This document shows, piece by piece, positions 2,092-60,789 of a stretch of 64,000 bases of DNA. Location of the stretch: positions 124,001-188,000 of the forward strand of contig NZ_JAFIDJ010000004.1 in NCBI RefSeq assembly GCF_017051705.1, given 5' to 3'. The translations under genes were made by a program, and so were the position numbers. Position 1 is the stretch's first letter, and the number at the start of each line of letters is the position of its first letter. The DNA is from Algoriphagus lutimaris. Lineage in GTDB: Bacteria; Bacteroidota; Bacteroidia; Cytophagales; Cyclobacteriaceae. The notes under the pieces were generated by a model. The model worked only from the letters and a program-made list of their open reading frames with translations, searched no databases and was not told the origin of the DNA.

Positions 2092-2189
2092 CCCCTCGCC
2101 AATCTCCTTGCAGTCGATTTCGAACCCGGTTTTTTAATTTATCGAGGGCTCTCATCCCTTCTTTATAATCTATTGCTAATTTTCATGGA

Positions 2190-2224
2190 AATAAAAAAAG
2201 CCAAACTATTGCTAGCTTGGCTTT
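2190..2224 (-). terminator. Repeat copy of the tRNA-Ser terminator (fourth)
   Basis: Last copy of the hairpin and T-run, in the outermost and most diverged repeat unit. Confidence 0.55.
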
Positions 2225-2366
2225 GCAGAGCCAAAGGGATTGCTCATACCCGAAGCCATGCCGCACCTCCCTTCGCCAATCTCCTTGCAGTCGATTTCGA
2301 ACCCGGTCTTTTAATTTATCGAGGGCTCTCATCCCTTCTTTATAATCTTTTGCTACTTTTCATGGA

Positions 2367-2401
2367 AATAAAAAAAGCCAAACTATTGCTAGCTTGGCTT
2401 T
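2367..2401 (-). terminator. Repeat copy of the tRNA-Ser terminator (third)
   Basis: Same hairpin and T-run, shifted another 177 bases along the minus strand. Confidence 0.6.
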
Positions 2402-2543
2402 GCAGAGAGGAAGGGATTGCTCATACCCGAAGCCATGCCGCACCTCCCCTCGCCAATCTCCTTGCAGTCGATTTCGAACCCGGTCTTTTAATTTATCGAG
2501 GGCTCTCATCCCTTCTTTATAATCTTTTGCTACTTTTCATGGA

Positions 2544-2578
2544 AATAAAAAAAGCCAAACTATTGCTAGCTTGGCTTT
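2544..2578 (-). terminator. Repeat copy of the tRNA-Ser terminator (second)
   Basis: Identical hairpin and T-run to the terminator after tRNA-Ser, 177 bases further downstream on the minus strand. It would catch read-through transcripts. Confidence 0.65.
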
Positions 2579-2720
2579 GCAGAGAGGAAGGGATTGCTCA
2601 TACCCGAAGCCATGCCGCACCTCCCCTCGCCAATCTCCTTGCAGTCGATTTCGAACCCGGTCTTTTAATTTATCGAGGGCTCTCATCCCTTCTTTATAAT
2701 CTATTGCTACTTTTCATGGA

Positions 2721-2755
2721 AATAAAAAAAGCCAAACTATTGCTAGCTTGGCTTT
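2721..2755 (-). terminator. Intrinsic terminator directly after tRNA-Ser (first of four copies)
   Basis: On the minus strand, AAAGCCAAGCTAGC...TTGGCTTT forms a stem of at least 8 base pairs (arms at 2728-2735 and 2748-2755) followed by a run of seven T. It begins one base past the tRNA 3' end, so it should end the tRNA-Ser transcript. The same hairpin is repeated every 177 bases in the array. Confidence 0.85.
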
Positions 2756-2756
2756 G

Positions 2757-2844
2757 CAGAGAGGAAGGGATTCGAACCCTCGATACCCTTTAGGGGTATA
2801 CACGCTTTCCAGGCGTGCTCCTTCAACCACTCGGACACCTCTCT
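2757..2844 (-). tRNA. tRNA-Ser (anticodon GGA)
   Basis: An 88-base class II tRNA on the minus strand. The acceptor stem AGAGAGG (complement of 2838-2844) pairs with CCTCTCT (complement of 2758-2764), and the discriminator base G is the complement of 2757. The anticodon stem-loop CACGC CTGGAAA GCGTG gives GGA, reading UCC/UCU. The variable arm is long (TACCCCTAAAGGGTA) and the T arm is GAGGGTTCGAATCCCTT. CCA is not encoded. It is followed at once by an intrinsic terminator and a tandem array built from its own 3' end. Confidence 0.95.
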
Positions 2845-59844: not shown

Positions 59845-60752
59845 TGATTAGTGACTCTACTGGAGCTTCTTTTTCTCTTGACTCCGCCTTCAATAAATTT
59901 GATAATTTCACCTGCGATGTCTATGCCAGTAGCTTTTTCGATTCCCTCCAGTCCTGGTGAACTGTTTACTTCGAGAATTAAGGGGCCTCTCGCCGACTGC
60001 AACATATCAACACCAGCAACATCCAAACCTAAGGCCTTTGCTGCCCCTAAAGCAGCAGCTTTCTCAGCTCTCGAAAGTTTTATGACTGTAGCCATTCCTC
60101 CGCGGTGGAGATTAGACCTGAATTCGCCTTCAGCACCTTGTCGTTTCATGGCCCCTACTACCTTCCCATTGACAACGAAAGCGCGAATATCGGCTCCTTT
60201 TGCCTCTTTTATAAATTCTTGGACAATTATTCTTGCCTTTAATCCATGAAAGGCTTCAATTACTGATTGTCCTGCTTTTTTTGTTTCGGCCAAAACCACT
60301 CCTAATCCTTGGGTTCCTTCCAATAACTTGATGATCAGTGGAGCTCCACCTACCTGCTCGATCAATTGCTTCTCTCCACCTTTAGAAAAATTAGTAAAGG
60401 CAGTCTTAGGCATGCCCAAACCTGCTGTTGACAAAATCTGCAAGCTTCTCAGTTTATCCCTACTTCTCACAATCGCCTGGGAATTCACTACAGAAAAAGC
60501 ACCCATTAATTCAAATTGTCTAACTACTGCTGTTCCGTAAAAAGTAACTGAAGCCCCAATCCTCGGAATAATGGCATCTACGTCAGTAATTTTTTCTCCT
60601 TTATAGATAATGGAAGGTCCTTCCTGCTCAATGATGATATCACAAATACTATGATTAATCACCATACCTTCGTGTCCTGCAGCATGAATCGCTTCCAAAA
60701 GCCTCTTGGTGGAATATAAATTTGGGTTCCTCGAAAGGATTGCAATTTTCAT
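59841..60752 (-). CDS. rimK: RimK-type ATP-grasp ligase
   Basis: A 303-residue ATP-grasp enzyme. The N-terminal domain starts [17 protein letters not shown], and the ATP-grasp core has [35 protein letters not shown] and the Mg-binding [15 protein letters not shown]. RimK adds glutamate to the C-terminus of ribosomal protein S6 or makes related peptides. Three in-frame ATGs in a repeated ATGAAAATC pattern precede the body; I chose the last (complement of 60750-60752). It follows the DTGA-protease gene by 37 bases, a frequent partner. Confidence 0.92.
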
Positions 60753-60789
60753 GGTTTTCATGATTTTCATGTTTTCAAAAAGAAACAGT

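Follow-up and report, generated by a model that had tools for sequence, protein, structure and literature searches.

A tandem array behind tRNA-Ser(GGA) in Algoriphagus lutimaris as a probable Bacteroidota variant of the TLR/RtT family

The tandem array located directly 3' of a tRNA-Ser(GGA) gene in Algoriphagus lutimaris is best explained as a Bacteroidota member of the family of tRNA-linked repeats (TLR; RtT in Rfam) that was amplified by recombination and is probably transcribed by read-through, a reading to which we assign a probability of roughly 0.75. TLR/RtT modules are non-coding, structured elements that lie 3' of an RNA gene and terminate in a duplicate of the last bases of that gene. 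Descriptions from E. coli go back to 1978, and 22 TLRs are found there at ten loci, with 18-19 bp at the 3' end that are identical to the upstream tRNA or rRNA (PMC8144298). The array shares this anatomy and its units are nearly identical; models built from Bacteroidota and from proteobacterial sequences recognize each other's repeats, the stems covary, and the tails of related elements follow their hosts behind many different tRNAs. Here, "the window" denotes the whole stretch of DNA that was analysed (64,000 nucleotides of contig NZ_JAFIDJ010000004.1), to which all positions refer.

The host RNA gene of the array, tRNA-Ser(GGA), was placed by ARAGORN and Rfam on the minus strand at 2756-2844 (with the lower boundary at 2756 or 2757). 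On the same strand, the array occupies 2091-2755 and consists of three complete 177-bp units and an incomplete one, as delimited by TRF and sequence comparison. Units 1 (2579-2755) and 2 (2402-2578) carry an exact tRNA tail, unit 3 (2225-2401) carries a mutated tail, and unit 4 (2091-2224) is broken off before its tail. TRF reports a period of 177 with 3.9 copies, 98% matches, and no indels over 2091-2772. Pairwise identity amounts to 176/177 for units 1 and 2, 172/177 for units 1 and 3, and 173/177 for units 2 and 3, while unit 4 is about 134 bases long, 132 of which are as in unit 1. The exact 17-nt 3' end of the tRNA recurs at 2595-2579 (unit 1) and 2418-2402 (unit 2), with an expectation of 4e-6 exact copies of this 17-mer given the base composition, 64 kb, and both strands. 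Each of the four units starts with a terminator-like hairpin (12 pairs, loop of 4) and a T-run, the first being located directly 3' of the tRNA (2728-2755, minus strand) and the further copies at 2551-2578, 2374-2401, and 2197-2224; in the window, a terminator thereby stands between the tRNA and every module. A promoter-like site was sought at the array and none was found. The array falls within the range of TLRs, which occur in tRNA or rRNA operons with 1 to 5 copies per locus, and its 17 exact tail nucleotides in units 1 and 2 correspond to the 18-19 bp of the TLR tail.

An initial annotation of this DNA had described a tandem array with a period of 177 bases beside tRNA-Ser(GGA) and a terminator in each unit, both of which are borne out, with coordinates, period, and tail length all correct. 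It had also stated that each unit contains about 17 bases of the tRNA, which is exact for two of the four units only, because the tail is mutated in unit 3 and absent from unit 4. The description of the array as copied from the tRNA's own 3' end applies to about 17 of the 177 bases plus pieces of the T-arm; the remainder is a module, whose relatives adjoin many different tRNAs.

This RtT/TLR-like structured module was delimited with covariance models on the minus strand at 2579-2699 in unit 1, 2402-2522 in unit 2, and 2225-2345 in unit 3, and a weaker match for unit 4 covers 2048-2168. Read along the minus strand, a unit is ordered as terminator, spacer, arm A, arm B, insert, and arm C. In unit 1, arm A (2675-2692) is an inverted copy of the tRNA T-arm plus tail with an altered T-loop (GGGATGAGAGCCC vs GGGATTCGAACCC), followed by arm B (2651-2658), which repeats the 5' strand of the T-arm, GGGTTCGA, in direct orientation. 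The insert of about 55 bases (2596-2650) lies within the copied T-loop and is kept in relatives. Arm C (2579-2595) is the exact copy of the tRNA 3' end and, in the structure that was tested, forms pairs with arm A.

The sole long reading frame in the units is a 206-codon frame on the plus strand (2173-2793), which is antisense and spans the array. It remains open through the array because 177 is a multiple of 3. Bacteroidota loci among the matches listed by our scan (see below) have periods of 147-173, mostly not multiples of 3, and the frame was rejected as coding since the period does not keep the frame in relatives. No recombinase or transposase gene, as would mark an integrative element, was found inside the units. 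Elsewhere in the window, TRF reports a 9-bp tandem repeat (TTTTCATGG, 3.7 copies) at 60746-60777.

Kinship of the array with the E. coli RtT/TLR family is well supported at the level of sequence and models. Two covariance models were used, namely R1, which was built from 27 Bacteroidota sequences only (window unit 1 among them), and R2, built from 36 proteobacterial sequences (35 from Gammaproteobacteria and one zetaproteobacterial by title), two of which come from E. coli MG1655. R1 matched all four repeats of the tyrT/tyrV region of MG1655 at 27.9-31.5 bits (E 1.2e-6 to 1.3e-5 in 205,645 bases) and gave a match at E<=1 in 30/30 loci presented to it, the weakest having an E of 0.58. Its score of about 100 bits on the window units arises by construction because unit 1 belongs to R1. 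Conversely, R2 matched units 1, 2, and 3 weakly, at 20.3, 20.3, and 19.3 bits (E 0.0037-0.0064 in 179,942 bases), and also matched each of the 21 other Bacteroidota loci presented to it, all four alphaproteobacterial loci, and, at 23.4 bits, the TLR behind the E. coli rrnB 5S rRNA (RrB), which lies outside the R2 sequences and shows a visible copy of the 5S tail. The two independent models thus agree on common sequence and structure, the R2 matches in the window being weak. It should be noted that the cross-phylum signal is in part tRNA-derived and that many model sequences were chosen by the two scan motifs, both of which help the scores. The comparison with rtT made by the initial annotation was right and proves to be more than an analogy, since the model from each phylum recognizes repeats of the other, and both sides have the inverted T-arm, the insert in the T-loop, and the tail.

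The Rfam RtT alignments share GGATGAGAACC and ACGAG.AATCC with the module, and E. coli MG1655 has the corresponding parts GGGGAAGGATGAGAAGCTTCG, GGTTCGA.TCGA, CCGAAGGG.GA, and GAGTAATCC followed by the tail. A search of the A. lutimaris genome with the Rfam model RF00391 at E<=10 gave no match, and the window array stays outside RF00391 as defined by a score of at least 45 bits. At E<=5, three of the seven genus loci given were matched with 21.8-27.2 bits as compared with the gathering score of 45. That threshold was reached by 4/12 other loci, all four of them gammaproteobacterial, and by none of four Bacteroidota and none of two Alphaproteobacteria loci.

Support for the proposed structure comes from an alignment (A3) of 27 Bacteroidota modules including window unit 1. 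The pairings A-C and A-B as well as the first insert hairpin are kept in 93.3% of its cells. Both sides have changed in 8 of 18 pairs, a count that 1 of 500 shuffles equalled, and the covariation score was 0.208 vs 0.080, with none of 500 shuffles as high. The structure also outscores slid versions of itself, a control that leans towards the tested structure because these very sequences had served to derive it. Against shuffles, four Bacteroidota units have folding energies that are not unusual (z -0.09 to -1.40), in contrast to those of two E. coli units (z -2.88 and -3.09); the structural support in Bacteroidota is therefore comparative and not energetic. When slack in the register was allowed, hairpin hp1 scored 15/36 vs 39/1104 cross pairs (its 6-bp version 13/36 vs 12/1104), the Bacteroidota hp1 18/29 vs 71/704, and hairpin hp3 29/52 vs 283/2522 (its 5-bp version 4/52 vs 32/2522). 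In RtT RNA, a covarying base pair identifies a tandem GA motif (PMC7657543).

One genome per species was scanned with the pattern GATGAGAACC-N(55-85)-CGAGYAATCC, which returned at least 117 stretches. For 79 of the 117 matches listed, a tRNA on the same strand precedes the element by less than 700 nt, and in 75 of these 79 the distance is 17-71 nt. The motif GTTYG, which is not part of the pattern, follows soon after arm A in 75/79 of these tRNA-adjacent loci and is missing in 26/38 others; hence 12 of the listed stretches have the motif only, four the tRNA only, and 26 have neither and look like chance matches. By record label, the 79 listed tRNA-adjacent loci comprise 50 from Gammaproteobacteria, 20 from Bacteroidota, 5 from Alphaproteobacteria, one from Mariprofundaceae, one from unspecified Proteobacteria, and two from MAGs labelled Rickettsia typhi and Halobacteria archaeon, whose labels are not relied on. 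Tandem copies with a period of 147-177 occur in 14/117 of the listed loci, including a four-unit array in the chromosome record CP030886, an independent genome. Neither the viral contig collection scanned with the pattern (0 matches) nor the plasmids searched with the window unit yielded a match. A survey of the phylum with R1 matched at least 16 of 296 genomes, which is a lower bound because 12 candidates per genome were scored. These matches comprise the A. lutimaris genome itself, one congener, 13 genomes of one further Bacteroidota family (f17), where the modules lie beside tRNA-Ser genes and several are in tandem, and a locus without a tRNA (L186) that is probably a chance match.

The tails of these elements follow their hosts closely. 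When the tail (ATCC plus 12 bases) was compared with the neighbouring tRNA, 73 of the 93 tRNA-adjacent elements among the matches listed (59 loci, at least 15 anticodons) were identical at 16/16 positions, 81 agreed at 13 or more, and 12 at 8-11; against tRNAs of other anticodons, 2/930 comparisons were identical and 44/930 reached 13 or more. The inverted arm follows the host to a lesser degree, as arm A of the listed elements forms on average 6.24 of 9 pairs with its own host tail vs 4.83 with other anticodons, and reaches 8 or more pairs in 14/90 vs 13/900 cases. Tails that match their host in this way suggest that the element either moves into the ends of RNA genes or acquires its tail by templated copying. 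It is conceivable, if rather doubtful, that TLR/RtT is a single element, widespread in bacteria, whose tail tracks the 3' end of the RNA gene before it, either because it inserts into a copy of that end or because the end is copied as a template. The same view would take in tRNAs of at least 15 anticodons, 5S rRNA, and even CRISPR-like repeats as hosts of a previously unrecognized class of mobile repeats that track RNA genes, and it stays a bold reading because the inverted arm follows the host only in part.

Within the genus, a query including the tRNA was matched in 59 of 60 genomes (that of A. lutimaris included). An R1 match lies beside the tRNA in 13 of 32 tRNA-Ser(GGA) loci, again with its own locus included; the 32 are the best matches of the 60-genome search plus two and are not a random sample. 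The other 19 have no model match beside the tRNA, one of them (L032) ending 60 nt after it, and the module is thus absent or decayed at many congeneric loci. Among the 13 loci with a module, most have an exact or slightly altered tail copy, one tail is interrupted by an insertion, and a few are decayed, so that sister genomes holding the sequence once and without a tail, which the initial annotation had set against its reading, are not the rule. The patchy presence speaks for a dispensable element, subject to gain, amplification, and loss, and against an essential regulator.

Several congeneric loci deserve a description of their own. In G050 (L017, L052), the module tail appears by eye to be divided over two contigs by an insertion-sequence-like element that has inverted ends (GGATCAGTC) and has duplicated 8 bp of its target (GCAATCCC). 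In L029 and L030, tRNA-Ser(GGA) is separated from an exact copy of its tail by a different unit of 161-162 bp with other internal sequence. A CRISPR-like array with 15 perfect repeats is present in G019 (L211:1-2150), the halves of its repeat pairing with each other over 5 bp (TCAAT/ATTGA, by eye). There, an RtT-like insert interrupts further copies of the CRISPR-like repeat nine times, before the ATTGAAAT end, and four of the spacings are 137-138 bp. The inverted arm in this array is not significant, as 232 of 2000 shuffles were as good and one of the 15 real spacers scored higher. In an empty-site comparison, CTAACTAT-type terminators were considered as the native flank of the tRNA and dropped, as they are also present where an island follows the tRNA.

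How the array may have arisen and what it may produce can be outlined in part from E. coli. From the near-identity of the units, tandem growth by recombination follows as the ordinary conclusion, and the copies would multiply by unequal recombination between the 177-bp repeats; the unequal exchange considered in the initial annotation is a fair account of them. RNA polymerase may then read through the first terminator, as it does in E. coli, and transcribe a unit. Arm A of that transcript would pair with arm C, and cleavage at the tail copy would resemble that at the 3' end of the tRNA itself, on the pattern of the E. coli order 5S-T1-TLR-tail-T2. A small RNA from the array is plausible by analogy with E. 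coli.

Whether such an RNA would matter to the cell is where the alternatives diverge. The main purpose of the unit could be a processed RNA, a functional small RNA of the trailer kind that has been proposed for E. coli RrA/B/F, with a copy number selected for dosage. In its favour, three E. coli TLRs (RrA/B/F), which lie between dual terminators after 5S rRNA, were found as RNAs binding Hfq and CsrA, and RrB is transcribed by read-through of T1 and processed (PMC8144298); Northern signals were obtained for two RtT relatives in A. pleuropneumoniae (PMC4986893), and the stems covary in A3. However, many congeneric loci lack the module or hold a decayed one, a terminator stands ahead of each module, deletion of rrA/B/F had modest effects only, the claim of a starvation phenotype for the tyrT repeat has been retracted, and according to the 2021 paper "no known function" could be given for TLRs (PMC8144298), so that we regard this proposal as unlikely. 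A DNA-level selfish element that enters RNA-gene 3' ends and duplicates or re-templates them, any RNA being incidental, is a tentative possibility. It would be in keeping with related inserts and host-matched tails at no fewer than 15 tRNA anticodons and behind 5S rRNA, with the inserts in the CRISPR-like repeats of G019, and with presence and absence varying at one tRNA among congeners. Against it speak the lack of a transposase or recombinase in the units, the absence of the pattern from viral contigs and of a plasmid match to the window unit, and a CRISPR-like case whose inverted arm does not stand out from shuffles.

Repeated island integration at a tRNA attachment site, of which the array would be the scar, is disfavoured and improbable. 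Two congeners, G047 and G046 (L209, L210), do have the module about 14 kb and 12 kb, respectively, from tRNA-Ser(GGA) with an island in between, and near each displaced module lies an ORF whose C-terminal motifs we take to be tyrosine-recombinase-like. These islands account for the displaced modules and not for the conserved insert; a covarying insert that is conserved in several classes and two phyla is unexpected for attR scars, and the window units are near-identical and in tandem with nothing between them. The pure integration scar entertained in the initial annotation is accordingly unsupported in spite of the islands at the same tRNA. The gross layout of tRNA, terminator, unit, and broken tRNA 3' copy is also seen in tRNA/GIY-YIG tandem units elsewhere in the same genome, of which the array might be a form that lost its GIY-YIG gene. 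This origin was rejected: the module belongs with RtT by the R1 and R2 matches, and tblastn with six GIY-YIG domains of the genome hit 0/32 tRNA-Ser(GGA) loci while finding two control loci. Outside the window, five of the nine PF01541 matches in the genome are small GIY-YIG genes directly 3' of tRNAs (L001, L003, L004, L007, and L009, at tRNA-Leu(TAA), tRNA-Met, and tRNA-Thr(TGT), in tandem at Met and Thr), which are followed by copies of the tRNA 3' part that are broken by short palindromes (by eye). Of 30 GIY-YIG loci examined across the genus, roughly one best match from each genome, 14 lie no more than 700 nt downstream of a tRNA. Finally, short near-identical tandem repeats assemble poorly and the assembly consists of 61 contigs, but an assembly artefact is highly improbable given the similar arrays in independent genomes, including CP030886 with four units and E. 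coli MG1655, and the private differences in units 3 and 4.

The array, read as a Bacteroidota variant of TLR/RtT, is of a kind that is already known. The variant itself may be new, as a literature search with thin coverage of subscription journals, including the original TLR papers, found no report of TLR/RtT in Bacteroidota, and the string "Bacteroid" does not occur in PMC8144298. The array extends the TLR/RtT family to another phylum, and the related loci take it to the Alphaproteobacteria as well. With many host tRNAs and host-following tails, an enterobacterial curiosity becomes a family that is diverse enough for testing which positions are conserved, whether the elements move between RNA genes, and whether they produce RNA. 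Annotators gain a pattern for unlabelled repeats behind tRNA genes.

Four known systems can be set beside the array. Segmental amplification of tRNAs driven by phage SegB also yields a tandem array adjoining a tRNA gene, but there a GIY-YIG nuclease gene within the repeat drives the process (PMC13096335), while the window units are without one. Xanthomonas sX4 (RF02223), which is named in papers on Oleidesulfovibrio and Herbaspirillum, has an Rfam consensus that begins tRNA-Ser-like and closes with GGGGGGUGAGA, which resembles the beginning of arm A; its matches (L015, L010) stay below the threshold (21.4-31.4 vs 70 bits) and fall mostly on the tRNA part. E. coli RrA/RrB/RrF share the order of RNA gene, terminator, module, tail copy, and terminator, and R2 finds RrB, but they have a 5S rRNA host, occur as one copy per operon, and are expressed and bound by Hfq and CsrA (PMC8144298), whereas a transcript is predicted for the window array. 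The closest counterpart is the tyrT/tyrV TLR of E. coli (RF00391 RtT). The window array differs from it in having a tRNA-Ser instead of a tRNA-Tyr host, an insert that is shorter and lacks a hairpin of the GGCCCGAAGGGC type, intrinsic terminators in all units, a tail without encoded CCA, and scores below the Rfam threshold. Both have a unit of nearly the same length (177 bp in the window and 178 bp in E. coli, repeated 3.14 times according to the title of Egan and Landy 1978 as cited in PMC8144298), a tail of tRNA bases (18-19 in E. coli), the inverted T-arm GGATGAGAA, an insert in the T-loop, and the GAGTAATCC junction, and each is matched by the model built from the other's relatives.
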